From Onchidella celtica (taxonomy: Eukaryota > Mollusca > Gastropoda > Systellommatophora > Onchidiidae), in the NCBI GenBank assembly GCA_963931925.1, contig OZ007579.1, forward strand, positions 25,266,269 to 25,330,268: a stretch of 64,000 nucleotides of DNA, written 5' to 3'. The position numbers were made by a program, and so were the translations under genes. The notes under the pieces were generated by a model. The model saw only the letters and a list, made by a program, of their open reading frames with translations, was not told where the DNA came from and searched no databases. Below are positions 15,001-64,000 of the stretch, one piece after another. Within the stretch, counting starts at the first letter, position 1, and each line of letters begins with the position of its first letter.

Positions 15001-18000
15001 TTCGCACAGACACTAAGCTGAAAGTGTACAATGCTGTGGTCCTTCCCACCCTACTCTATGGGGCTGAAACCTGGACAGTGTACCAATCGCATGCCAGAAA
15101 GCTAAATCACTTTCATCTGGCCTGCCTTAGAAAGATCCTAAGGATCAAATGGCAGGATAAAATTCCAGACGCTGAGGTCCTCAATCGTGCCAAGGAATTG
15201 AGCATCTTCTGCCACCTGAAAAAAATTCAGCTACGTTGGGCAGGACATGTTGTCAGAATGCCCGACTCCAGACTCCCTAAGCAAATCTTCTTCTCTGAGC
15301 TCTCCAATGGAACGAGGAATGTTGGGGCCCCAAAGAGACGTTACAAAGACACTCTCAAGCAATCACTGAAGGCCTTTGCCATTGATGTGAGTGAGTGGGA
15401 AAAGCTCTCGCTTGATCGTGCAAATTGGAGGGTGGCCCTTACCAGAGGCAGCAAAGCATGGGAAGCTGACAGAGTCCAGCAGGCTATCAAAAAAAGAGAA
15501 CGGCGCAAGAAAAGGCCCAGTGGTACTGAACCAACGGAGCACTCTTGTCATTTATGCGGAAGGGTCTGCAGGGCAAAAATAGGACTTATCAGTCACATGA
15601 GAAGCCATAAGTCATGAAAGAACAGTCTTTCCATTCTGTCCTCTGTGTCCTTTAGTTCTCTTTATTGTCCATGTGTTGAAATTCTCAACAATTTCTGTTC
15701 TTTATTCCTCTGGTGTTGTTAAGGTCATCATCATACCTGATGGACGAACTATTATTATTATTATTATGTGTAACCCAATCTAGAACACATAGCATGTATT
15801 CTCTTGTCTTATATGGAATGAATTCGGAGTATTTCTCAGTCTTATGCACTCTGGCTGTTGGATATCAGTCAATCTCTCACATCATCAAGAGGTCCATGAC
15901 AGCATCACTTGGGAACCTCTCACAATGATTATGGACAATCCCCACCTATTCCCTTTCTGTTTATCTTTACCTCAAATAATGACATATGCAGCCATCTCTG
16001 CAATTATACTAACCAAACTTTTTGTGCAAGTTCCTCTCAGTATGAAGTCATGCCATGAAACAGTTCATGAATAATGAATACACTTGGAAAGCATTTTTGG
16101 GAGTTTTGTTTGACTCACAATTTTCAAGTGAAGTGTTCACCTCAGCATCTGGCGGCTGCTTGTCAAGCCACTAACAAAAAATGAGTATACTTGCAAAACA
16201 TTAAAATCTGTGCTATACATGTACTTCAGTCCATGGAATACTGTTTGCTGACTCCTCACTGATTGTTTTTCCATTCTACGTGAACATAAATTTTGGTGTT
16301 CCACACAGTTTTATATAATCGTTTTTCTCAAAGGATGACCTAATGGGTCACAGTATAGTCTTGTTCTGCTTTTAAGCTGTAAGGGCAATTCTTGTATGAT
16401 CATTAATTTGTTTGCTAAAGACAATAAGTATTCTTATTTCAAAGCCCGTCAGGGGAAAGAGCAGCTTGGAAAAGATAAAGAAATCTTTGTCATGTTGTCT
16501 GATTCCGATGAGGTCATATCAATTGCATTTACTTACCAAGTTTTCAAACTGAGCTGTTGTTATGGATGAAAAACTAAACAGCTGTTGGGTACATCTAATT
16601 ACACACAAAACAAACTCTTGTAATTTCTTTTTATGTGACTTGTCTTGTTGTGTGAACCAGCAAAGATCCTCTGTGACAACCTTTGATACAAAGCAAAATG
16701 AAAGATATTATCATATATTTTATCATCCATTAGCCGGCTTATTGATTACACTGATGAGTGCAACCTGTGAGCAAATTCTTTTAGAGCTATAGCAAACAAA
16801 ATTATGAAATAATTTGAGACACTAATTTCTTTCACTCTTTCAAGACGTATCGCTGATTTATCGGTGCCAGTGAAAAACGTGTCTACATTCAATTCTACTT
16901 GACTATCAAAACTTTTTTTCTGTAAGCGTTTTTCTGAACCATGCTGTTTTTTCCCAAAGTGGGAAAAAATTAATTATGTTCAGACTTGACCGAAGCCCCT
17001 AACACTGACATCCTGAAAGAGTTAAATATTGAAAACTTTTATACCTTCTGGCCCTCACTGGGTATACCAAGTAAACAGTCTGTAAATTTCAATTCCTCTC
17101 CCGGACAATAATGCTTTATTTTTGTTCATTTCTGAATGGCAAATAATTTTTTTTTCTCAAAAATCCTTGATAAGTTGACAAAATCATCCACTATTCGCAA
17201 AACTTGCAGAAATTTCAAAACGTAATTTGAACTTGAACTATGTGAGTCCACTCAGCAGAAAGTTAAAACTCATATGCCACAGATGAAATTTGGAGGATAT
17301 ATACTTCAATCAATTTCTCTATCCCTAGCTATTTGAACTATGATAATTATATAGGCATTTCTGAGACGAGCCATTGTCACTGCCCTCTTAGCATGAAAAT
17401 GAAATATTTCAAATAAAAAAATAAAAAAAACACTTGATTATAAATTGAATATTTCCCGGATTCACTCCGATCTCATAGTTAGGAACGACTCCACATGGAT
17501 CAATCTTTCAGGTTGTAAAGAAATGAGTATGTAATTAGTAGGGAAATTTTACAATATTTAATACACAACAACTCCTATTCTCAAATTAATTAACATGTTT
17601 AAATATAAACACCCAGCAACAATAGTAGTACAGACCTGCAAAATGGAGGGTTTAACAGTAGCAGATGACCCACTGAGGTTGAGAAATTTTTCCAAGGTCT
17701 GCCATATCAAAGCAATGTCCTTTCTATCCAACTGGTGCCTTCAAATTAAAAAAAAGAATGACAGCTTTGCCTCAGTCCGTACAGTGATGCATCTTTTAAA
17801 GCAGAACAGTTTAGTGCATTTTCCAAATCAAGTAATAGTAATAGTAATTATATTTACAGAGTGGTATTTCAATTTTTAAATTGAATCATGAAAGAACATG
17901 GCACATGTGAAAATGAAATTTTCATGGAAGAAGATAGCAAACTTTTGTAGATGTTAGTAATTTTTTTTTTTTCAATTATAATTCTTTTGTGGTGCTAAAC

Positions 18001-22737: not shown

Positions 22738-24195
22738 TTAACCCTCGTCCCGCATTGCATGAACTCATCCACGTAACGCCTTGTGCTGGGAGAGCCAGAA
22801 GCAAGTCAGTCAAGCGTTCGCGTGTTGCCAAAAACATCGGTGGCCGGCTCAGTCGGGCCCTTATGAACACATGTATCATGTTTACTTAGGATGCAATACA
22901 ACAATAATGGTGGATAAATCGTAAGTGACCCCTATGATATATTTGGATAAAGTACATGTGATGAAATGCAATAAATTTTATTGTTAAATAGAAGGCCCAT
23001 AATCAAGAATATTCTGCATTTACATGCCGTTTAATACACATGTTAACCTTTTCCCCGGAGCTCTGCACTTTTTTTTTTCCCCCAAAGTCAGGCCATACAG
23101 GTGAACAAATTATTACGCCTTGTGCTGGGAGAGCCAGAAGCAAGACAGTCAAGCGTTCGCGTGTTGCCAAAAACATCGGTGGCCGGGTCAGTCGGGCCCT
23201 TATGAACACGTGTATCATGTTTACTTAGGATGCAATACAACAATAATGGTGGATAAATCGTAAGTGACCCCTATGATATATTTGGATAAAGTACATGTGA
23301 TGAAATGCAATAAATTTTATAGTTAAATAGAAGGCCCATAATCAAGAATATTCTGCATTTACATGCCGTTTAATACACATGTTAACCTTTTCCCCGGAGC
23401 TCTGCACTTTTTTTTTTTTCCCCCAAAGTCAGGCCATACAGGTGAACAAATTATTTTTTACGCCAGGCACTTAATTTACTAACCACATGTATCATGGTAT
23501 TGCCTTCTCCCTCCTCCTCTATGTAAAGCTTCCATACACAATGGTGTTAGTTTTCTTAGCACGCCTTTAGCAAGAGATTTGATTTCCAGCTGGTAGAGTA
23601 CATCTACTGAAAAGCAGTTTGTCCAGAGCAACACAATATCTCTCTAATTACCACATCAAATAAAAACAATGACCAACAACAAAGTTGGTCATTTTCTCCC
23701 AGTTTTCCCTGATGGAAAACCTACCGACAGATGCCCTTATGCAGCATGCCCTTGTATTACATCGGAATTCATTATTACAGACATAGAACGGCTTCTCAAA
23801 TACGCAGTTGGCCCCTTTCTTCTCATTTCACACGTAGACGATAACCAGCATCAAAGTCAGAAGTTTCCCTAAGATTCCACAGTTCGAGCTTCAGACCATC
23901 AATACTATTACATGAGTGTGACGAACAGTTACAAAAGTTGCATTGTAACAAACGTAATCAGACGATACCACTTTCTTAGACATAGTAGGGATGACAGGGT
24001 GGATAAACAAGCGAAACTAGTGTGGAAAAAATAGTCACAGCAACCAAATAAACAAAACATGGGGAGCATTGTTGCTATACAATACATTGGCCTCCCGCAG
24101 GACTCGGTTTACAAAAAGTAGACCACAATATTGGCCGCGCGTTTTGCGCGAGGAGGCCATGATAGTGGCATGGCCTCCCGCAGGACGAGGGTTAA
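22738..24195. mobile_element. TTAA-type non-autonomous element, family 4, copy 1 (1.46 kb, internal duplication)
   Basis: Flanked by TTAA on both sides. The inverted ends are TTAACCCTCGTCCCGCA and CCGCAGGACGAGGGTTAA. It contains an about 339-bp direct tandem duplication (22776-23114 and 23115-23455). A second copy without the duplication is at 46632-47772. No transposase frame is visible. TTAA target choice fits piggyBac. It lies in the spacer between the divergent URB2 and KLHL genes. Confidence 0.8.
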
Positions 24196-44192: not shown

Positions 44193-47100
44193 CTGTGAAG
44201 TAACGGTAAGTGGAAACACAAAGATTATTCGACGTTGGCATAGGCAAAATATCCTAAGTTGGTGTGGGTTTAGCTTTCAGCATACAGCAAAGCACCTGTG
44301 TTGAAGTTAAAATGCTGAAAATCTCGTGCTGCTGCAATGTGCTAAAATGTAATGATTATTACACTTGTGCCTGGAGCTATTCTCGAACACAAAAAAGTAA
44401 AATTTTATAGGTACACATAAATGATTTACATGTATATATTCAATTGAAAGTGTCAGTGCATAAAATACAAAGGTGGGAATTGGAAAATCTTCATAGGGGT
44501 GAAAAAGGGCCAAAATTACTTGACAAGTGTGAACTTAGCTATGTTTTGCATGGTATTTTTATGAAAATGTAATCTTACAAACAAATCTGAGGCAGATGAA
44601 AATCTCTATAGGGCTGATGTCAGCTTTGAGGAGAACAATTGCTACCTATGAGAAAATTAAGTTATAAATATAATCTGTCACATGACACCCATTACTTGAG
44701 TGGAGGATGTTAATCTTTCTACTGCCCAAGCTGGCCTGTGCCACGCTAATTTAATTAATTTCCTCATTTAAACTTGAACTCTCTGACCTACCTTAGTCCC
44801 ACATTCATCTTGAATTGGTGACATTCCAAAACAGCCATTACTCACCCAGTAAGAAGCCAATGGACATCATTGCCAGGTTGTCACGTACAAAAACAGGAGA
44901 CCAGCCTGATCCACTCTGGTGCACTGTCTCTCCTTCTGTCCCCAGGATTCTGGGCATTGACGGGCCGCAAATATCCACATCAAGAACTCCAATCTGCAAG
45001 GAAAATGGAAAACAAACAGCACTTAACTTTTTAACCTGACAAACACTAGAGCCTCAACATGTCATTTCTAATGTCTTCTCCTTTAAAGTGCACAATTTTT
45101 TTTTCCAAGGACCCAATAAATACATATCTTTTGATCCTCACTAATTGAAAATTTTAAAATGGCAAAAAATAGCGTCAGGGAAAGTAGTGGCAGACTGTAG
45201 CACAACAAAAACCTGTAGGTAAAGATGGATGTATTGCATCTTTTACACTCATCTACTATAATATCAATAGAACAGCTAGAACATTATCACCATTTAATGA
45301 AGGACAATTGGGTCAGCAGAAAGGCCATTGTATAAAACACTGAATGGATGATGGATGTTGATTGTATCAGCAGTGAAGCAATATTGTAACTTAAAGGAAA
45401 TACATACAAATATGCTTCTTTTTGTTCATGCATTATTTTTTTATGACTCCTGTTAATCACAAAGTTAGACAATGTCATATTAAATAGACTTACTTGTTTT
45501 GTTTCATCAGCTGCCAATGCATGAGCCAGGTGAGCTGTAAACGTACTCTTGCCTACTCCACCTTTCCCAGATAGCACAAGGATCTGTGCATGATAATAAA
45601 TGAATTATGAGAGACTATTTTGATGAGGTTGATAAGATAAGATAAAATAAGATGAAACTTTATTTAGAGACTGGAAATTTGATTTATCTTGGATATCCTG
45701 ACTGAATGGTCGGACACAGAGAACTCTTTCTCTACTTCACATCTCCATTTCACACCAGTTCCAAGAACTACTGTTGTTTCCTTTTTACTAATCCAAGATG
45801 TCATTTCACCACTGATATAGACCATTTACTGGCTGTCATCGATATAAAATAAATAAAAAGTGTTGGATCACTGTCACCTCCTTCTCTCCACATATTTTCC
45901 TCATACCAATTTAATGAAAAGACTTCCCAATTAACGCGTTTCATGCCAGTTTTTCCTAATCACACCTTTATTGTATTCAGCAGTTGATTGCCAAGCTGAG
46001 CATTAACCACCCTGGGCATGATGCGGACGATTTCATCCTCAATGTAATGTGCGAATATATGGCTTCACTGAAGTTGCTACGAAACCTGGCAAAGTACCGC
46101 TAAACAACTGCTAGCAGTAGCAACTGCCATACATTGGAAACTGAGTGACATTTTTAAACCGATTTAGGTTGATTTTGCCGATGCTGTTGCGAAAATGAGT
46201 GATTCAGTGATACAAGTGAGGAGGAAATTTCTCCCTCAAATGCAGATAGTGAGGAAGGTAACTTATCCCTTTTAGTGGGCATTTTTGTGAAATTTGTTTG
46301 CACTGTATGGGCTTGTATGTGGAGTGTAAAGTGGCATGAAAAACATACAATACTGGCTGCTTGTGTGTGAAATATAGGTGGAAAATAGTGTTTCATGGTA
46401 ACGGAAATATTTTTTTTTTCATTCTGTCCCCTGAGATATCCCATAATTTCAAACACAAATGCTCAATTTCAACATTAAAATGTAGCCAGTGGTCTCTAGT
46501 TTCAGAAAATGTACAACTTTATGACTTTTTATCCAATAGTTTTCAAAATACAACTATTTCTGTGACAATGTATCAAATAATAGGCTGAGAATCCTCAATT
46601 TTATCTACCATTCTTAATACCACTCTTGATTTTAACCTTCGTCCCACGCTGAGTGAACTCGTCCACGTAACGCTCCGTGGGGGGATAGCCAGTGGCCAGG
46701 CAGCCGATCGTTCGCGTGTTGCCGATAACCTCGGCGGTCACGTCAATCAGGTCCATGTGAACACGTGTATTGTGTTTACTTTAGGACGCAATAACAACAA
46801 TAGTGGTGGATAAATCGTAAGTGACCCCTACGATATTTGGATAAAGTACTTGTGATGATATGCAGTAAGTTTTATTGTTAAATGGGAGGCCCAAAATCAA
46901 GAATTTGCTGTTTACATGCCGTTTAACATACGTTCTATCATTTTCCCTAGACCTCTGCGCTTTTTCTGGCCCTGAGTCAGGCCATTCAGGTGAACAAATT
47001 ATTTTTTAAGTCAGGCGCTTAATTTACTAACCACATGTATCGTGGCATTGCCTTCTCCCTCCTGTACTATGTAAAGCTTCCACGTACTATGTTGTTAGTT

Positions 47101-50100
47101 TTAAAGAGAGATGTGATTTCCAGATCGTAGAGCAAATGTATACTGAAAAGTTGTTTAATCAAAGCAACACAGTATCTCTCTAATTACCACATCAAATAAA
47201 GACAACGACCAACAACAAAGTCCGTCATTTTCTCCCAGTTTTCCCTGAAGAAAAACCTACCGGGGGAGACGCCCTTATATATAAATGCAGCATGCCCTAG
47301 TATTACATCGGAATTCATATTCATAATTACAGACATAGAACGGCGTCTCAAATACACACATGGCCCCTTTCTTCTTATTTCACATGTAGACGACAACCAG
47401 CATCAAAGTAAAAGTTTCCCCAAGATTTTCCCCAGTTTGAACTTCAGACCATCGGAACTATTACATGAGTATGACAAACAGTTACGAATAGTTGCATCGT
47501 AATAAACGTAATCAGACGATACCATTTTGTTGGATATAGTACTTAGTAGGGGTGACAGGATAGATAAACACACGAAAATAATGTGGGAAAAGAAACGTGA
47601 AAAAAACGACAGTCGCAGCAACCGAATTTATAAACAAAACACAAGGGGCAGCGCTGCCCTACAATATATTGGCCTCCCGCTGGACCCGGTTTGCAGTGCG
47701 TAGGCCACAATATTGGCCTCGTGTGTTGCGTGGGGAGGCCAACATAGTGGCCTCCCGCAGGACGACGGTTAAGTCAGCGCTCAAGTGGTTAACTATAAAA
47801 ACATTGGGAGGACTTCCGAATGCGTTCCATAGCTCAACAAGTGCATACAGGCATTGTCAGATTGATATGTGACGACGTGAGGGTCTAGTCAGTTTCTTTC
47901 ATCGAGGCCGTAGGCCGATGTTCGTCTGGGCAGTAGTCAGATTGACATATCAGGGAAACCGCCGGGGTAGCTATGTATTGTTTTCACTCGGGCTATGGAA
48001 CGCATTCGGAAGTCCTTCGAAAACATTTCTATAGAGGGCTAACTTGCCAGGAGGGCAGAGCCCCCCTTCAACCCTGTGAACAAGGCCACTACTTGACACA
48101 CCCCCCCCCCCCTTCCTTTTGGAACATTTCATTACTGTGAGAAAATCTGGCCATGAGACCCATTCAGAAGTCCTCTCAACATTAACATGACAAAGGAGAG
48201 ATAAGGTAGCCATGATTTGGCCAAATTTTCGGGGGCTGCCCAGTTTGTCACAGGCCCACCCCACCCCGACTGTGCCCTGCATGATGGAAGTTATCACTGA
48301 CACTCTCAAAAAGAGTAAATGAATGATTGATTGATTGTATGAATTGAATTTTATTTTTCAATTGTTTTTAACGAAAGAACATTCATTGTTGAAATTTTAC
48401 AGAGTAATTTGCTTTGATTTGCATACAAAAAGGAAGAAATATTGAACAACACAAGCTGAATTGACATTTTAGAGGGACTATCTCTACACCACCAATTTGA
48501 AGATGGAGAATAAAAAACTTAGGTTACAACTACAGTGTTAAAGTGCTGTAATTATGACTGTCATCAATACTCAAATACTTAAATGAAATAACAAAGCGAT
48601 CTTCTTCATGAGTCTTCTTTCAAGACACAATTATGCTTCTTTTAAGTTTGTATACAGATCAACACAGTTTGTGTGAAAAACATGTTCATTGCAACTGGAA
48701 GTAATGAGAAGAGTAAATTGAAGGGCCCAAATTAATGTAGGCATACAAAAATATTCTAGAGTAAAACAAATAAACTGGTATCTTAATTTCTTATATGCAG
48801 GACAACATAAAACTAAAGTAAATTTGTACATCATTTTGTACATCAGATTTACAGTCTAACAAAGGAAGGCAAAGAAATCATCTAAGGCCTACTTGGGCTA
48901 ATCTGGAGGGGGAACACACTTAGTCAACCACTTAACCCTCACCCTGCACGGGGCGGCAATAGTCAGTATTGACTTGCAAGCGCTCACGCCGCACGGGCGG
49001 CAAAAGTCGCCCAGGTCAAGCTGACCGCGCCACGCGCAAGCCATATTTTCACACGTCGGGTCACTGACCTTTTTGAGACGTAACCACCGTGTTATTGTTC
49101 ACTGTATCTCTTCTAAATCAAACGCATTGTGACATGGACATGTTAACCAGTGAACCACTGGTCGGAATCACAAAGACTAAGCTTTCAAAGGCTCTCCCCA
49201 CACTTTCAAAAGATGTAACATCGACATGCGAACTGTTGCTCAACAAATTTGCAATATTATCTCATTTTCTCACAAGCTGACCACCATCTGGAGTTGTCTG
49301 TATCTAAGAGTAAGAACCAATCAGAACCAAGCTCTGAAATAATCTTTGCCCCAAATGCCCACATTGGTTTATAAGTATGTGTCAATCAGGATGAAACCAT
49401 TTGTGTAGGGCTTGGGAGGGCGTGGCTTGTTATCACTCTTCGTTCTCACGAAAACTACAGCTGTCAGCTTGGAATCATAAGTCAGATCATTGGTTAGAGA
49501 CTGACAGACTAAGGTTTTGCTGGTTAATTCATTATCAAGCGTGATAAGGCATAGCAGCGAATGTTTTCATACCGATCAATAAAAACCGAACCACGTGGAC
49601 AGCGTATGTGGTCATCGTCTAGCGGCACGGGTCAGTGACCCCAGATAATAAGATTCTCCGTGAGTAAGGTCACTGACCGGGCAGCGGGCTTTACGGGTAG
49701 CGCGCAGGGTATGGGTTAATAAGGTGGTCTAGAGGCAAGGTGCTCGCCTCTCGTGCCAAGGGTCCCGGGTTCGAAACCCGGGCCGTGCAGGCATGTTGGA
49801 AGTTTGGGATTTTTCTCATATTTTCGTGTCCCTGATTTTATTGAGGGGTAGGATCGAGTACCTAGTCTTCTCGGATAAGGACGAAAAAATTCGGAGGGCC
49901 CGTGTGCACGTTGCGCACGTTAAAGATACCTTGGCAGTTGGAAATCGTAAAGAGCAGGCCGAACAGGCCGCTGCCCGGGCAAAATTAAATTAAATTCATC
50001 TCTACCAGTCCCTCCCCCTCCCCCCTTATCTCCCCCCCCCCCCAAAAAAAAAACAAAAAAAAAAAACGCCGACCGGCGCTGCACTGTGGCGACGACGTGC

Positions 50101-54700: not shown

Positions 54701-54779
54701 TTTTAAAAAATAACAATGTTTATTGCTATGTAACATTTGTATTTTTGCATGTTTGTTTCGTAATATATAGTACCGTGCA

Positions 54780-55308
54780 GCTACGTTGGGCAGGACATGT
54801 TGTCAGAATGCCCGACTCCAGACTTCCTAAGCAAATCTTCTTCTCTGAGCTCTCCAATGGAACGAGGAATGTTGGGGCCCCAAAGAGACGTTACAAAGAC
54901 ACTCTCAAGCAATCACTGAAGGCCTTTGCCATTGATGTGAGTGAGTGGGAAAAGCTCTCGCTTGATCGTGCAAATTGGAGGGCGGCCCTTACCAGAGGCA
55001 GCGAAGCATGGGAAGCTGACAGAGTCCAGCAGGCTATCAAAAAAAGAGAACGGCGCAAGAAAAGGCCCAGTGGTACTGAACCAACGGAGCACTCTTGTCA
55101 TTTATGCGGAAGGGTCTGCAGGGCAAAAATAGGACTTATCAGTCACATGAGAAGCCATAAGTCATGAAAGAACAGTCTTTCCATTCTGTCCTCTGTGTCC
55201 TTTAGTTCTCTTTATTGTCCATGTGTTGAAATTCTCAACAATTTCTGTTCTTTATTCCTCTGGTGTTGTTAAGGTCATCATCATACCTGATGGACGAACT
55301 ATTATTAT
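54780..55308 (+). mobile_element. 5'-truncated LINE copy with 16-bp target duplication
   Basis: Corresponds to 15231-15760 of the long LINE, with only about three substitutions seen. It keeps the last 127 codons, the C2H2 finger, the 3' UTR and an (ATT)n tail. Direct repeats TATATAGTACCGTGCA flank it at 54764-54779 and 55309-55324. This is a textbook target-primed insertion. Confidence 0.95.
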
Positions 55309-55633
55309 TATATAGTACCGTGCATGTCATAAAAAGTAATCGTATCAAGCGTTCAGTTTTGGTGCGTAGTGTTTTGGTGCGCATGAGTTCTGAAGCAAGA
55401 CTGTAGTTTATTACTTTTATTATACTAGAGAGAGGGGGGGGGGGGATCACATGATTGTTTATTCTGGGCAATGCCCGGTAGCTCATCTAGTCCTATATAA
55501 TTCATGTTTTATTTTTGTTGTTGTTGTTTTTGCTCCTAAATGAAATCTGCTACCTGCTGCACTTTACAAATAAAGTAAAATTATCACAATTGATCTAGTA
55601 TTAATGTAAAGTTTTATGGTTAACCTCTAGGAC

Positions 55634-55950: not shown

Positions 55951-56880
55951 CCCATTGAAGTAAGAAACCAGTGAATAAAACTTGAAATAAAGTTTTAATA
56001 AAATCTTCATTTGAATGTATACGTACTGAACATATAATGTTTTTTAAAATCTCTTTGTATATTATATACTGTATACTAAATTTGACCGATCGCGGTTGGG
56101 GGGGGGGGGGGGAGGGGGGGGCGTTGTTGTTTTTTTGGTACCTGGCAACGGAACGATCTGAGGTCGGCACGATTGAATTCCGTTCCTATTCACATCCGCC
56201 TAACTCCGATTTTGAAATGTTTACAAAAGGTACAGAAAAAAATAATTAAAAGTTGGCTTGCAAATGTTTATTTTTTCCAGGAATTGGACTGGACCCGCAA
56301 CACTTCAAATATCGTATTATAATATTTATATTGTTTAAAAGATCGCATGGCTGTGGTGATGCACCATCTATTTAAAGGCTAAACGGTGTTCCTCCAAAAT
56401 CTGAGAGAGGTGGACAGAAACAATCAGTAATGATATAGAACTGCTCGGCAGATGAATCAGAATTGGGTAGCGTAGGCATACAACACCATGCACCCATTTG
56501 TTATTTAAATTTGGAGACATTCAGTGTGGTAAAGCAGGGGCCGAATTTACAGAGGGACAAAAGTGGTACCGTAACTGCCTCGTCCCCTCCCCCAACCCCA
56601 CCTGCTAGTGCTAGAGTGCCAGAGGAAGCTATAGAATAAAATTCTAGTGAGTTTAACTGTCTTGTCTAATTAACTATGGAAACTAAAGAAAACGTAACAG
56701 CATAGCTGTGGCCTTCGTAATTTGTCTCATCTAAAAATCATGTATTTACTTAGATATGTCATTCATTTAACTTTTCTTATTACGTATAACTCGTCGGTTG
56801 CACAATTACGTGCAATAAAATGACTTCGATGTATATAATGATGATTTACTGCATATTTTACTTCCGTGTAAGCCTACGTA

Positions 56881-57030
56881 TCCTTATGTGCGACGCGACG
56901 TCGAGTCGCTCGCGATTGTTGTCGCTCCAAAATCAATCGAGTAAGATTTGTGAGAAGCCATCTCCTTATACGCGACGCGACGTTTAGTCTCGAGCGACCA
57001 TCGCGTGAGATCAAGTCATGTCGCGATCGG
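56881..57030. repeat. Harbinger left terminal and sub-terminal repeats
   Basis: Outer TIR (56881-56930) plus a second module at 56970-57016 (CCTTATACGCGACGCGACG, CTCGAGCGACCATCGCG). These are likely binding sites for the transposase and its MADF partner. Confidence 0.75.
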
Positions 57031-57628
57031 CTAGATGATCGCGTCAGACTGTCTGGAGGTGTGTCTGATTTAAAGCATAGCCATTGGTCGAAATTACTTG
57101 AGTGTGGTGCTTCATTGTGCGTGCCATGTGTAGTACCTTTTCCTTGCACTACATACATCTTGAAAGTCTATCCCAAGACCCACAACGCCACTGTACAATA
57201 TATCACCCATTCAAATATTTAATTTAATGATTATAGCGAATAAATGAGTATAAACTGCAAACTTTGATGAAGTTCTTACATATATAAGACCATCGGGGAA
57301 CTGTACATCTTCTAATCCTATGTATCAAGGTTGTGCTAGGTCTCGCCAGCCCTTCACCTGTGCAACCATCATATTCTTTTACAGCCACTAGTGTCAAATA
57401 TCTTGATTGATAATTGTTTAGATCTGTAATAATTACAAATAAGGTGCAGGATGTTCATCAAGATCAACGCGAACGACGAACCACATGTAATGACAGCATG
57501 CCTGTGTTTATGATTGTGCGCGCCGAACTATTTTTAGAAACTCATGACTCAGTGGACGGAAGTGCATGAATTGCACCGTCCTGACGTAGTGGGTATTGGG
57601 TCTATCATCGCAAAGAAAACAGTGAAAC

Positions 57629-57788
57629 ATGGCAGGGGAGGAAAGACAAATGGTAGAGCAACTAATTGAGCTCGTTCGTACACAACCTGCAATTTATGAC
57701 CCGCAGTGCAAAGAGCACAGAGACAGGGATTTTATATGTAATTTCTGGAGGAGTGTGCAAAGGGAAATGGAACAATCTGAGTGGACAG
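57629..57788 (+). CDS. MADF/BESS exon 1
   Basis: ATG in the context AAACATGG; donor GGACAG|GTGAGC. It encodes MAGEERQMVEQLIELVRTQP through EQSEWT. Confidence 0.85.
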
Positions 57789-60700
57789 GTGAGCTTGCTT
57801 CTTTTGTAATCTTTTATTTAAGTTTTCTCTTTTGCTCTCTATCTTTTCCTCCTTTCTTGATTTCTTTCCCTGTATTCCCCCTTTCCTTACTTCCTTCCCT
57901 TCTTGTCAAAATCTACAATGTACACTGTATTATGTGTGTGAGAGGATGAACGACTTTCTATTTTTAATGTGCTTTCATGGTAACTCTGGTGCGTGAGTGA
58001 GGGACGGCCACTCATAGTAGTTTATGGACACTTGGCCGAGTACCATTAATTGGATTATTTCCCTTGTAATACTAGCGCGGGACCCGTTATTCACATCACG
58101 GTGAAAAGCGCGCATTTTGATTGGTCAGTTGGAAATGTTGACCACCGGGCTTCCAACTCTTATATCATGGCTTTAAGTTTCTTACAACTCGCTCCTTCGT
58201 TGTTATCCACCGACAGAAAGACGGGAGCCCGAATTCATTTTTGAGAGTAGACAATACCCTATCGGTACAAAATAGGTACTCATGATAACGTTTGTTATCA
58301 ATGGAGATACGTCGTATTAATGGACGAAAGTATCCCGCACAAAATTGTCGAATGTTGTTAGTCCTGACACTTTGAAAATTTACATTAAAACTATTACTGG
58401 GTTTCTGGTATAAGTAGTCAGTTAGAATTTTAGCAGCAAGTTTCTACTTTATAATGGTACTAATTTCGTTGTACTTTGATGCACATGTCCTATTGAAATA
58501 ATTAATAAGAGGATCTCGGATTTAAGGTAAACCACGAGTTAGACGCATGGTATCCCCGATAATTCCAACCTGGGTCAAATTTATTCAATTATTGCTGGAG
58601 GGGACGTTAGAGTAATTTCTGCAGTTTACTGGGATACCTAATTGACTTTTGTGTGCACCCTTTTAACCGTACTGTAAATTCGATTGTGTTAGGACCCTAA
58701 CCTGTTATGTTGTTCGGCTGGACTCAATGTCCGAGCCTTTCACTTGTCCAAAACTGGACTACGTAATAGCTCTCCCAGACGTCCGCGCTGGCTCATAAAT
58801 AAGATGCGAGTTCGAGTGGTCAGCACACTCCATCAAAGACGCAGAGACAAGAGCCGACAGCACAGTGAACCCAGACCAGCAACCCGGGCCCGTAGCAGCT
58901 CAGAGGCTTGCCGACGCTTGCCATCGCCACCCCGCCCCATAAGGCATGAAGCGGTAGCACAGGACCCGGAGAGACTTTGGGTAAGTTGGAGACTATTATA
59001 TTAGAAGTGACTTTAATTTGCGCACCCCCCCCCCCTTTCGGGGATGCCACGTAGAGAATGCTGATCTACAGAGACCATTACGAGTCCGGCTCAACGGTAA
59101 TTGCCATTGTCATTAGACGTGTAAGATGCGCGATGCAGCGCAGTGTCTTGATATTGTGACTTTATTGTCAAAGTTAACGTTTGCGGTGCTAGATGATAAT
59201 GATGGCTCGCTAACCAAGCTATCACAATTTGCTTGTGTGCATATATATAGTGTGTGTGTAGCATTGCCTTGTTGTGGTAGGCAGTGAGGATTTCCTGACA
59301 TGTTGATGTGGATGACTTATGTTATAGCGAGCGGCACTATACACTTGATGGTATTACGGGTATTTGTGTACCTTGCCAGTACCACTATGCTATAGAGAGC
59401 AGTGTGATTGTGATTGTGTGTTTAATGTTTAAGATGTGTAATTAATTACATATAGGCCTATTGGAGATGTATAATATTAGTTGGGCCTCACATGTGTGAG
59501 CCCCAGGATTGTCCTATGTGCGGCGGTGGATGAACAACGTTTCAGTGAGTCTACACATGTTGCAATGAGTCTCGCCGACATATATATATATATATCATGT
59601 GCATGTATTATAGTTAATCCAGATGTATTATGCTTCTATGAGTTTCGTAAGTGTGTGAAGGACAGTTTCATTTTAAGGAATGTACACATTACTTTATGTA
59701 TCTAGTGGTGTGTCATACGCATGTTAGCCTGGCGGCATAGCTCCGCGGCTAAGGTCAAAGGGCATGACCCTTCAGTATCGATTGGGAAGGGAAGTAACCA
59801 ATACAATAGCCCTGGGGCGGGTTAGTACTAATAATGGGAGTGGGCCTATGAGGATGGCCTGCATTGGGATGCAGCGTCTGTGTTATGGACGGTCAGTGGG
59901 CCATGTTGGCCACTGCGTTATTATTTTATGGAATGGCCACCCTGGATGTGCTGTACACCGGCTCAGTGGAGCGAAACTATTGTGTTCTTGCCCCTTCATT
60001 CGTTATGTCCTTCATACTTTGATTAGTACATTAGTTTATGTTGCCAGTGTACTAGGAAACTCCTTGTGTGTATGATATAGCCACTTGTAGTTGTTATTCA
60101 TTAACCTTAGCGCTATTTTATTCCATGCATACATATCCAGTTGGTTATTGCTTAAATTCTATATTATATTGTTGTTGTTTGATTTAATACTTAATACTAT
60201 TACTATGTATGTCCACCATTGATTGCCTGATTAATGTTGTCATTATATCCTAATCATATTTTGGTCTTTTTCTCTTGTTCCAGCTTATGGCTGGTTGGGC
60301 TTCTTTTTCTTGGCTTCTTCTTCTTTTCTGGGTTTCTTTTCTTTTTCTTGGTAGAGTTTTTCCCTATGCCTTTTGGTAGCGATACCTTTGTTAGGCTTTT
60401 GAATAAATAAGATTGCCAGCAGAACCCTGTGTTTGTTAATCCTGTGTATCCTTAAGGGAGTTACTATTGAACCCACGCAGTAACCACATTAGCCACTCGT
60501 AGTTCATCCAACATGTGCAAAACGGAAACCCCATAATATACACCATCATCATCATTCATTACCACCACCACCACCACCACCACCATCCTCATTATCATCA
60601 TCATCATCATCTTTTCTCCATGTATAGCATAGTATGCTAAACATCTCACCGAAGAGTAAGTACACACAGAGAAGTTGACACTATGTAGTAACTGATCAAT

Positions 60701-62624
60701 CTTTCCTTTCAAAGACCAAGACTGGAGGAAGAAATGGAAAAACTTAAGGGACACTTTCCGAAGAAAACTGCATTTGGCAGAAGAATCAAGGAGTGGGCAG
60801 GCAGCGACAAAGGCAACAGAATGGGTTTTCTATCAATCCATGACATTCTTGGTTCCTTATCTGGCCAATCCTGTGTGAGTTCCTACTCCTTGTCCTCCTT
60901 GTTTTATTCCACCTCATCCTCCTTTCTTGTTGCATGTGCACAAATAATTCTTTAGTTTCCACAATTAACATAGCAAGTGTTTAATGAACACATGTGATTT
61001 ATTAGATGGCATTGATCATGAACATCATGCACACACATGCACACACAAACACACTTACAAACGCACACAAATTCATTTCTCTGTGAACATATATGAATAG
61101 ATGTATGGGTGCGCAGTTTTCTTTTTGTCTGTTTTATTTTCCAGCACAGTTACAAATGTCCCCAGCGACACTCAGACGGAGGCTTCGCAGGAAGAGTTGG
61201 ACGATGATGAGTCGATGAGCACTGCTTCTGGAGACAGGTGAGTTTAATCCAGCGTTCCTCGCTGAACTATATTGAGCTGATAGTCTAAACGACCCTCATT
61301 AACGAAGTAATCCATGAAGGTATTCCTGACTGACAAAGCGTTCTCTGCCCCATGGTGTCCAGTGCGTTGCAGAGGCTGCATGGCATAAATTTCATCTTGC
61401 TCAGGTTCAGAAATGTTGGCTTCAGGCTGAATAAGATTGTGCAAAATGCAGGTGGCTTTCACAATGTCGTTAACAATTTCTGGCTGAACGCAAATTGCTG
61501 TGCGAAAGATTCTGAAGCGATTAGCAAGTATTCCAAATGTACTTTCAACCATCCTTCTTGCTCGGCTGAGGCGATAGTTAAATTCCCGCTGATTCAGAGT
61601 ACAGTTGCGTCCAGAAAATGGGCGTAGTAAATGCCTCTGCAGAGGAAACGCCTCGTCCGCAACCATGACATATGGAACAGGTTCGTTTCTTCCAGGCAGT
61701 GGCTCATCCGGTGGAAAGTTGAGCGTATTTGCACCAACAGCTCGTCCAAGATTTGATGATGAAAAGATTCCAGCATCACGGTTCCGTCCATAGGCACCGA
61801 TATCGATACATTGAAAACGGTAGTTGGCATCCACCACTGCCAGCAGCACTATGGAACTGTAACCTTTGTAATTAAAGTACAAGGACCCTGAGTTATTTGG
61901 GGCCTGTATTCTGATATGCTTCCCGTCAAGGGACCCCAAACAATTAGGAAATTGCCATTTTTGTTCAAAGTCTTTAGAGCTATTAGTCTCCATTCTTCAG
62001 GTGTTGATGGCACCCTAAGGTACACATTCGCCATGTTCGCCCAAATGGCTCTACTGACTTCTCTGACAATTTTGCAGACCGTCATAACGCCTACCCGGTA
62101 CTGGAATGCCAAAGAATGATATGATTCTCCGGTGGCTAAAAATCTGTGAAAATGAACAGAAATTTATATAAAATTTGTTGTAAGGAACATAGGAAGAAAA
62201 ACATGCAGTAAGCATATAAATTATAAGTTTGTAATATACTGTTCATGATTAAATTTTATATTATTATGTTGTATCCAAATCCAGATCTCTGCCATCGACC
62301 TCAACAGCATCAATGGCAAAGAGGGCCAGAAAGAAGGATGTGGCATGGGAGTCTATGCTCGAGGATCACAGGCGGGCAACACAGCTCTTCACTGAGCACA
62401 TTCAGAGGCCCACCAAGAGTGATTCACTTGTGTTTTTGGAGAGTTTTGCTGCCCGCATGGATGCGCTGCCACAACATGTTCAGAGTGTGGTGCGCATTCA
62501 AATAGCGCAGGTGTTCCATAACGCCGAAAATGTGGGCAACAGCCCTCCCATTCCTATCACTCCATTCCAGGCTGTGTATACTGACTTCAGCTGTACACAG
62601 TATCGTCAGTATACACAGAATTAA
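57629..62624 (+). CDS. Harbinger MADF/BESS DNA-binding partner protein, intact
   Basis: Exons 57629-57788, 60715-60874, 61145-61237 and 62285-62624 join to 753 nt, 250 residues plus stop, with consistent phases. The MADF domain (Myb/SANT-like) covers about residues 7-95: LIELVRTQPAIYDPQ, FICNFWRSVQREM, DWRKKWKNLRDTFRRKL and EWVFYQSMTFLVPYL. An acidic Ser-rich linker (QEELDDDESMSTASGD) precedes a basic KRARKKD stretch and a BESS-like motif at about 184-216 (FLESFAARMDALPQHVQSVV). In Harbinger transposons such a partner binds the ends and helps nuclear import of the transposase; that role here is inferred. Its third intron contains the main transposase exon on the other strand. Confidence 0.85.
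58260..60700. other. Unexplained first intron of the MADF/BESS gene
   Basis: 2.9 kb, much longer than the other introns. It contains an Arg-rich open frame (58744-59004), poly(C) at 59026-59035, (TA)n at 59580-59596, AATAAA near 60402 and a (CAC)n/(CAT)n array at 60541-60612. A nested LTR-type insertion was considered, but no paired ends or target duplication could be shown. Confidence 0.3.
60541..60612. repeat. (CAC)n / (CAT)n microsatellite
   Basis: Nine CAC-type triplets flanked by CAT triplets, within the Harbinger element. Confidence 0.9.
60715..60874 (+). CDS. MADF/BESS exon 2
   Basis: Acceptor TTTCAAAG|ACCAAG and donor CCTGT|GTGAGT. It encodes DQDWRKKWKNLRDTFRRKLH and the EWVFYQSMTFLVPYLANP end of the domain. 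The donor could also be 2 nt earlier, but this choice keeps phase. Confidence 0.85.
61145..61237 (+). CDS. MADF/BESS exon 3
   Basis: Acceptor TTTTCCAG|CACAGT and donor GACAG|GTGAGT. It encodes TVTNVPSDTQTEASQEELDD and continues acidic. It ends 6 nt before the antisense transposase stop codon (61244-61246). Confidence 0.85.
61244..62143 (-). pseudogene. Transposase exon 2 (DDE nuclease)
   Basis: Frame 1 from 62143 encodes FLATGESYHSLAFQYRV and VYLRVPSTPEEWRLIA; frame 2 from about 61977 encodes KDFEQKWQFPNCLGSLDGKH onward to the stop. It lies inside MADF/BESS intron 3 (61238-62284). Confidence 0.88.
62285..62624 (+). CDS. MADF/BESS exon 4
   Basis: Acceptor AATCCAG|ATCTCT. It encodes KRARKKDVAWESMLEDHRRA, the BESS-like segment and a tail ending YRQYTQN, then TAA. 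It lies entirely inside the transposase intron. Confidence 0.85.
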
Positions 62625-62689
62625 ATTCTTCATGACTTTGTTTACAATAAAAATCAGAATGTTAATATCTGTGTATTTGTGTTGATCGT

Positions 62690-63395
62690 ATTTTAGTTTG
62701 TGTTTGTTGGTTTGTTTGTTTGATGTTGTTGCTCCTATTTGATTTTTTATTTCTTTTGTGTGTGTTTGTCTTCTCTTTCAGTTTGATAGTTCACTTTTTA
62801 CAGTTTTTACAGACCTTTGTTTCATAATTATGTTGATGCTGTTAGAAAATTACTCATCGTTGTTATTATGAAATTGTTTTTAAAAACGCATAATGCATGG
62901 CACATGTGGAAGAGTGCCAAGACTGTCTGGGCCTGTGTCAGGACAATATTAGTGACAGAATCACTGCAACCCCATTCTTATTTTGGGTTTTGGGTGGTTT
63001 TCTGTAGTTACATTGTTGGACATTGGTCGAGGTACCCCCTTTTTGAATTAAATTATGTAGCATTTTGGGCGCAGACATTAAAATTGAACCCCCAACAAAA
63101 CAAGAGCAAAACAAACGAACAAACAATCAATAAAAACAACCAAAAAAATCAGCAACAGGAATAAAAAAAATATCAAGCATGATTTAAAAAAACAACACAC
63201 ACACACAAAATAAAACAAAAACCCAGCAGCACAAAACGAACGACAATGACGATAACAAGGATGATGATAATAGCAGTTTCCCAAATTATGGTCATGGTAA
63301 TGACGGTGTTGATGATATTGGTGTTGTTGCTATTGGTGGTGGTGAAATTGGTCTTGATGGCGGTTGGGGTTATGTATGAAACTTAATAAAACTAC
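62690..63395. other. Remainder of the transposase intron
   Basis: Low-complexity G/T-rich and A/C-rich stretches (for example 63060-63240); no further coding signal seen. Confidence 0.5.
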
Positions 63396-63399
63396 TCAC

Positions 63400-63707
63400 C
63401 TCAAACATATGGCTAGTCTTTGTTTAGCACAAATAACTGCTCGACAAGGAGAATATTTTGTCATCTCCGCTTCAATATGGGATAGAACAATTCCGAACTG
63501 ATGCTTGTTGAGCCTGAAATACTCTTTGAAGATTGCATCATCCATTTCCAGTTCCATTACAAGATGATGGAATACTCCATGTTCTTGTCTTCTTCGATAC
63601 ATATCCCGTACGCAATATCTGTGACGTCTTTTCTTTTTTTTGTAGGCAGCAAGTATATTAAAACTTTTGGACAAGAACATGAAACCAGCGATATCTGTGG
63701 CGTCCAT
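63400..63707 (-). CDS. Transposase exon 1 (N-terminal region)
   Basis: Starts MDATDIAGF and contains KKKKRRHRYCVRDMYRRRQE, HHLVMELEMDDAIFKEYFRL and CAKQRLAICLR. The basic run fits a nuclear localisation or DNA-binding role. The upstream in-frame start at 63818 falls in the CG-rich terminal region and is less likely. Confidence 0.8.
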
Positions 63708-63754
63708 ATTGGATGACCTTCTCACCTTTCCGTGGATTGTTGTCGCCTTGATTT

Positions 63755-63928
63755 GATACGCGACGCGACGTCGCTCGCGCATAAGGATACACTTTTGACT
63801 CGCGCGATCGAGCGACATCGCTTGACCCCGGATTTTCGCTAGCGAATCTTAGCGCATAAGGATACACTTCGCGCGACTGGTCTCGAGCGACGATCGCGAG
63901 CGACTCGACGTCGCGTCGCGCATAAGGA
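63755..63928. repeat. Harbinger right terminal and sub-terminal repeats
   Basis: Three CG-rich modules each contain GCGCATAAGGATA or its relative (63778-63792, 63851-63865, 63916-63928). The outermost forms the TIR. Confidence 0.75.
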
Positions 63929-64000
63929 TATGTACACTAAAAGACAGAAAGACTTGGTAGATGGATGACACTGTTCTTTTGGCGCAGACAGCGGTTTACA

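Follow-up and report, generated by a model that had tools for sequence, protein, structure and literature searches.

Can two genes of one transposon each lie within an intron of the other, and would such an arrangement be an accident of a single copy or something that related elements share? The question is raised by a 64-kb window of the Onchidella celtica contig OZ007579.1 (the whole stretch analysed, to which all position numbers refer), which contains a copy of a PIF/Harbinger element with a transposase gene on the minus strand and a gene for a MADF-domain partner on the plus strand. The two genes run towards each other and interlock at their 3′ ends, with the last coding exon of each lying in an intron of the other. 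It is highly probable that this is a decayed PIF/Harbinger copy with interlocked convergent transposase and MADF-BESS genes, a judgement that covers its anatomy, its membership and the antiquity of the interlock. The interlock seems to be an ancient arrangement that has been retained, and no accident of one copy, because it recurs in distantly related elements of the same genome (1.14 Gb in 43 contigs, G000).

Two convergent genes that cross at their 3′ ends

Positions 57300-64000 and all of their reading frames were read directly, and both gene models were rebuilt and then compared with Pfam. This reading bore out the geometry proposed in the initial annotation: transposase exon 2 lies inside MADF intron 3 and MADF exon 4 inside the transposase intron, the introns being GT-AG (Table 1). 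The gap of 6 nucleotides (nt) that had been noted between the end of MADF exon 3 and the antisense transposase stop is the splice donor GTGAGT itself.

Table 1. Positions of the element and of its two genes in the window
Feature	Positions	Strand	Remarks
PIF/Harbinger element	56872-63937		7066 bp as found, ~4.49 kb minus later insertion; inverted ends, target-site duplication, four other long copies
Left target-site duplication TAA	56869-56871		Matches 63938-63940; ends set by comparison with L040 (TAA/TAA) and L041 (TTA/TTA)
Right target-site duplication TAA	63938-63940
Left terminal inverted repeat region	56872-56919	+	45 nt at 93% to right end
Right terminal inverted repeat region	63890-63937	-	Outermost bases unlike L040, L041
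MADF exon 1	57629-57788	+	ATG, donor GTGAGC; N-half of PF10545
Later insertion of long terminal repeat (LTR) type, in MADF intron 1	57937-60512		2576 bp, ATGTG 5-bp duplication, starts TG; absent from L039-L042, where the empty site was read
MADF exon 2	60715-60874	+	MADF C-half, PF10545; AG/GT, phases fit
Candidate transposase poly(A) signal AATAAA	61133-61138	-	Lies in acceptor tract of MADF exon 3; L042 has it at the same position; pattern only
MADF exon 3	61145-61237	+	AG/GT
Transposase exon 2 (DDE domain)	61244-62143 (62143→61244)	-	Inside MADF intron 3; DDE_Tnp_4 match
Stretch holding both 3′ splice sites, one per strand	62144-62284		141 bp
Transposase intron	62144-63399	-	GT-AG, phase 2
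MADF exon 4 (BESS-like C-terminal part)	62285-62624	+	AG acceptor, stop; inside transposase intron
Candidate MADF poly(A) signal AATAAA	62646-62651	+	Pattern only
Transposase exon 1	63400-63707 (63707→63400)	-	ATG, donor GTGAGT; in L042 the frame is open and continues into exon 2

The MADF frame is open across its four exons (753 nt, 250 amino acids), every intron is GT-AG, and the spliced protein matches MADF_DNA_bdg (Pfam, E 5.5e-18). The description of this gene as MADF/BESS stands for its MADF part, but Pfam gave no BESS (PF02944) match in exon 4 of the window, even with the threshold at E 1, and this half of the name draws on homology to a relative, L073 (loci read in the genome carry L numbers). 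There a single exon encoding the MADF C-half and a Pfam BESS domain aligns over window exons 2-4 with 25% identity (E 2.7e-15), supporting the BESS nature of exon 4. Among the relatives, BESS was matched by Pfam in L073 (E 1.1e-8), L071 (E 5.4e-12) and, under the cut-off, L077 (0.0049), with no match in the pieces of L048, L060, L050 and L075. On the other strand, the transposase matches DDE_Tnp_4 with an E of 1.2e-33 over 61244-61996. A sequence search of the PDB gave no match up to E 0.1, and a scan of viral contigs with the transposase gave one pattern match and none confirmed.

A PIF/Harbinger element and its close copies

The initial annotation placed a Harbinger transposon at 57629-63707. 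The classification holds, but that range is the coding extent alone and the element itself is longer (Table 1). Membership of PIF/Harbinger, with the two-gene content, is supported by several features. The 3-bp TWA duplication given for this group (PMC4482050) is present in all three copies with both ends clear (TAA/TAA in the window and L040, TTA/TTA in L041); L042 has TGA at its sole clear end, and L039 has TAA on the left and a TTA past the right end that belongs to a composite. The DDE transposase is matched in L042 (DDE_Tnp_4, E 6.6e-34) much as in the window. For the helix-turn-helix (HTH) motif the match is below the cut-off (HTH_Tnp_4, E 0.11, 12.5 bits versus 27), and the motif is not counted among the supporting features. 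As a Myb/SANT-like second gene there is the MADF gene (PF10545), which also matches Myb_DNA-bind_4 at E 0.0012, under the cut-off of that family. The inverted ends start with GCCTAC and agree at 93% over 45 nt, and the length is 4471-4475 bp in L041 and L040; in the available text of PMC4482050 the inverted ends of the group begin with A or G and are mostly <60 bp, with a mean element length of ~4.1 kb. Membership of NuwaI, NuwaII or Pangu is ruled out, as these need a CWG duplication, TNA between a flanking C and G, or an ANT duplication (PMC4482050, in the same text), and the duplications here are TAA and TTA without flanking C and G (window, L040, L041). ISL2EU is likewise excluded, as it needs a YqaJ exonuclease partner and an AT duplication; here the partner is MADF and the duplication TWA.

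MADF intron 1 of the window copy is enlarged by the insertion listed in Table 1, which, judged from its duplication, looks like an LTR element or a solo LTR and is probably younger than the element since it is absent from the four other long copies. Near both element ends (56881-56997 and 63746-63925) a GC-rich subterminal motif around CGACGCGACGTCG recurs, and its copies are possible candidates for binding sites of the MADF partner. Elsewhere in the window there is a direct repeat (15228-15761 and 54778-55311; 534 bp, 99.4% identity, ~39 kb apart) that is a recent duplicate or a mobile copy, together with diverged direct repeats (22738-24195 and 46632-47772, at 79-80%) and a local tandem copy (22776-23114 and 23115-23455, at 98%).

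The four further long copies, which are accompanied by fragments, are L039 (C9:21.15 Mb), L040 (C16:41.8 Mb), L041 (C15:21.0 Mb) and L042 (C9:18.8 Mb). Their right blocks are 98-99% identical to the window, and their left blocks 99% (L040, L041), 96% (L039) and 91% (L042). Exon order is the same in all of them, with MADF exon 1 of L039 interrupted by ~1.1 kb. The transposase is open in L042 (401 amino acids) and broken in the window, L039, L040 and L041; MADF is open in the window and L040, has one stop in L042 and is out of frame in L041, the interlock being the same in L040 and L042. With five long copies and the 11 families described below, an oddity of one copy is ruled out. Comparison of exon with intron divergence among the close copies gave no clear contrast, and within the family there were too few differences for a ratio of nonsynonymous to synonymous substitution. 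Beside the copy at C9:21.15 Mb lies an inverted piece of a related element (L039:1114-1721; 79% at the DNA level, with transposase exon 1 ~70% identical), a further family near the window's own.

The interlock among related families

Relatives were found by searches with the MADF last exon, the DDE part and transposase exon 1, and so are sampled by their likeness to the window's own proteins. Families were defined as clusters of the DDE part at 80% identity after nine near-copies of the window family had been omitted, and each entered the tree as one row with stops as X. This gave 11 transposase families with pairwise identities of 37-70%. The order transposase exon 1, MADF last exon (antisense), transposase exon 2, MADF first exon(s) was read in nine of the 11: L042; L048/L049; L050 with L078; L058 with L019; L060 with L028, and L061 with L020; L066/L073; L071 with L079; L072/L074; and L077 with L080. 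In L058 with L019, MADF exon 2 was seen on the far side and exon 1 was not, and in L077 with L080 transposase exon 1 of the copy carries a stop. L076, which is not counted among the nine, is consistent with the interlock in the part read, which did not include the transposase exon 1 stretch. Copies in which the two genes lie next to each other, the observation named beforehand as contrary to the proposal, were found in none of the 11 families, which rules out this gene order in the sampled relatives.

The same picture was obtained by tallying individual matches. The tally used 37/37 MADF exon 4 matches (35 places, two of them in two pieces), 147/150 transposase exon 1 rows (three second fragments being dropped) and 150/151 transposase exon 2 matches. 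Among the matches listed, 25 of the 37 exon 4 matches have a transposase exon at ≤4 kb, and in all 25 it lies on the opposite strand, transposase exon 1 being downstream of the MADF exon, exon 2 upstream of it, or both (both in 15, exon 1 alone in nine and exon 2 alone in one). For 55 of the 150 DDE places listed, there is a match to transposase exon 1 no more than 8 kb upstream on that strand, at a gap of 942-6357 bp (median 1467); because the DDE match starts ~55 codons into exon 2, the introns are ~170 nt shorter than these gaps.

The transposase tree splits the families in two with support of 97/93, and the two sides have different layouts. On side one (L066, L070, L072, L076, L077) transposase exon 2 lies in MADF intron 1, which measures 1176-2053 nt in the four families with a fitted junction (L073, L074, L071, L076). 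On side two (L042, L048, L050, L058, L060, and L075 with MADF unseen) it lies in one of the later MADF introns, intron 1 being short (some 280-560 nt in those read). The transposase junction fits at the same place and in phase 2 in all eight families with both sides read, the introns of 779-1744 nt having room for the partner's exon. MADF intron 1 is in phase 1 in the window, L050, L073, L074, L071 and L076 and ambiguous in L061; no junction fit was listed for it in L042, L049 or L077.

The exon joins are supported because relatives encode the same stretches unsplit. In L073 and L071 the MADF C-half and the BESS region lie in one exon, and in the L075 transposase one frame runs through the junction at residue 103. 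Both reading frames are constrained between families, with synonymous sites near saturation: the proportions of synonymous (pS) and nonsynonymous (pN) differences are 0.66-0.89 and 0.17-0.43 for transposase exon 2, and 0.72-0.96 and 0.41-0.51 for MADF exon 4. As both genes also match protein families, chance antisense frames are ruled out. The MADF and transposase distances are correlated (Mantel r 0.64, p 0.00055, n = 9), as expected if both genes travel together; for this comparison the MADF rows were stitched from near copies of each family, row L042 being the window's own MADF and L058 and L075 having no row. Congruent transposase and Myb-like trees have been described in fish (available text of PMC9179366).

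Several observations weigh against an old interlock that is general and at work. Splice phases, described in the initial annotation as agreeing for both genes, do so at the introns, but the window transposase frame is broken once within exon 2 near 61990, its exons summing to 308 + 900 = 1208 nt, which is not a multiple of three, and its halves lying in two frames. None of the five long copies (window, L039-L042) has both genes open, although each gene is open in some copy, so that any transposition today would depend on proteins supplied by different copies; with the frame break, this rules out the window copy as an active element. In four of the eight transposase fits (L042, L050, L028, L074) other in-frame junctions were also listed. 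The MADF tree, from a short alignment, fails to recover the two family sets as single groups, needing two changes (29% of bootstrap trees need one), and 77 and 82 of 500 shuffles are as low as its change count. In L075 both parts of the transposase are present and a MADF exon was not found; the locus lacks the residue-103 transposase intron and has another near residue 147. Within its transposase intron an antisense open reading frame (1585-2028) is BESS-like by eye, with no Pfam match. Twelve of the 37 MADF exon 4 matches have no transposase exon nearby among the matches listed. Transcription, splicing and transposition are predictions from sequence, and the survey covers one genome. Within that genome, 94 of the 150 matches listed from a Pfam MADF search are unsplit domains (≥240 nt), of which only two have a listed transposase exon 2 at ≤8 kb (6-7 kb away) when coordinates are compared. 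These domains could belong to host genes, or to partners of transposases not in the sampled list. As only the coordinates of these domains entered the survey, the claim of an interlock is limited to the sampled families with a split MADF domain and does not extend to every MADF gene or Harbinger of the genome. Many of the unsplit matches, for example G000:C15:26785425-26785703, have equal scores, as repeats would.

Origin and persistence of the interlock

The difference in host MADF intron between the two sides of the tree means that transposase exon 2 changed intron with the interlock surviving, or that the interlock arose on two occasions. If the block comprising transposase exon 2 and the 3′ part of MADF were duplicated in tandem, complementary loss afterwards could switch the intron without ever breaking either gene. 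Each primary transcript would carry the antisense of its partner's exon as intron, and as that coding exon sits in an intron each protein would be made only if splicing removes it. Both proteins are presumed to act like their counterparts in zebrafish Harbinger3_DR, whose Myb-like partner attaches to subterminal DNA and whose transposase depends on that partner for nuclear entry; zebrafish and rice work indicates that both proteins are required for transposition (available text of PMC9710019). No internal deletion or crossover could then yield one intact gene without disrupting its partner, and the two required proteins would stay together by virtue of their inseparable genes. We tentatively prefer this linkage as the reason for the persistence of the interlock, though with rather less than even confidence.

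Next in order, and possible if somewhat doubtful, is a single origin through overlap of the 3′ ends of convergent genes in a compact element, with the arrangement persisting without benefit as undoing it breaks a gene. ISL2EU elements (transposase plus YqaJ exonuclease) belong to the same superfamily and also have two genes, which in three loci of this genome (L002, L007, L008) are convergent but lie tail to tail without interleaving, so that convergence may be ancestral. The elements are also compact, with the lengths given above for L041 and L040 and ~2.9 kb between candidate ends in L074. However, the host MADF intron differs across the transposase tree, and from these two end states it would seem that the arrangement was reorganised, or else arose on two occasions, with an interlock as the outcome all the same. 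It is unlikely that the interlock serves antisense self-limitation, in which complementary convergent pre-mRNAs would form double-stranded RNA or collide, such that strong expression of either gene would depress its partner and cap transposition. Bounded by coding sequence, the two units overlap by 1381 nt, and as the first AATAAA past the transposase stop in the window falls within the MADF exon 3 acceptor tract, the predicted transposase 3′ untranslated region would, in the mature mRNA too, cover MADF exon 3 (93 nt). In L074, however, the candidate poly(A) signals stop just short of the partner's exons; its mature mRNAs would not overlap, and exonic overlap is therefore not general. That the models are mis-joined, with MADF exon 4 a separate antisense gene or transposase exon 1 unrelated to exon 2 and nothing interleaved, is very improbable, for although the joins of both genes rest on homology and splice-site fit, the unsplit relatives (L073, L071; L075), the recurring phases and the open joins of 250 and 401 amino acids argue against it.

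The element resembles PIF/Harbinger of the PHIS superfamily in its DDE transposase, Myb/SANT-like (MADF) partner, TWA duplication, inverted ends of <60 bp and length of ~4-4.5 kb, and differs from the group as described in the reciprocal interleaving of exons on opposite strands. The main text of a 380-family survey (PMC4482050) contains no word starting with intron, orientation, opposite, overlap or strand. According to the available text of PMC9710019, insect PIF elements and co-domesticated pairs likewise combine a transposase and a MADF partner from one insertion, but there the genes are adjacent and not always in the same direction, with APLG2 and APM2 of A. gambiae lying 179 bp apart and a single dicistronic transcript read from one pair. 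PIF/Harbinger elements of Medicago (PMC2213677, in the part available) have a transposase with introns and orf1, but orf1 is placed before the transposase in five elements and after it in six. Antisense genes share intron space in nested and embedded host gene pairs too, but the classes named in the available portions of PMC2330155 and PMC2335118 are nested, embedded, convergent and divergent, with no reciprocal class. In the ISL2EU-type locus L002 the YqaJ partner has a PHD finger as well. No account of a transposon with reciprocally interleaved genes was found in the literature searched (including the accessible text of PMC11893794 and PMC10027918), within which the earlier suspicion that the arrangement is undescribed is supported; subscription papers, bioRxiv or Repbase may have one, and Repbase exon coordinates may imply it.

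Against that literature it is the reciprocal interlock that appears new, the PIF/Harbinger group in which it occurs being already known. Reciprocal antisense interleaving may, as a tentative generalisation that we would not yet bet on, be a standing architecture of an animal Harbinger lineage, retained because it binds two obligately co-acting genes into an inseparable unit, and may have been carried across, or re-formed after, a rearrangement in which transposase exon 2 switched between the first MADF intron and a later one, perhaps via tandem duplication and complementary loss. Two-gene transposons require both of their proteins, and an inseparable pair would be a simple physical answer to how they avoid losing one gene. 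Gene finders that bar antisense exon interleaving would mis-annotate such elements and the host genes derived from them. The many families and copies form a replicated natural system for the splicing of two antisense genes when the coding exons of one serve as intron sequence for the other.

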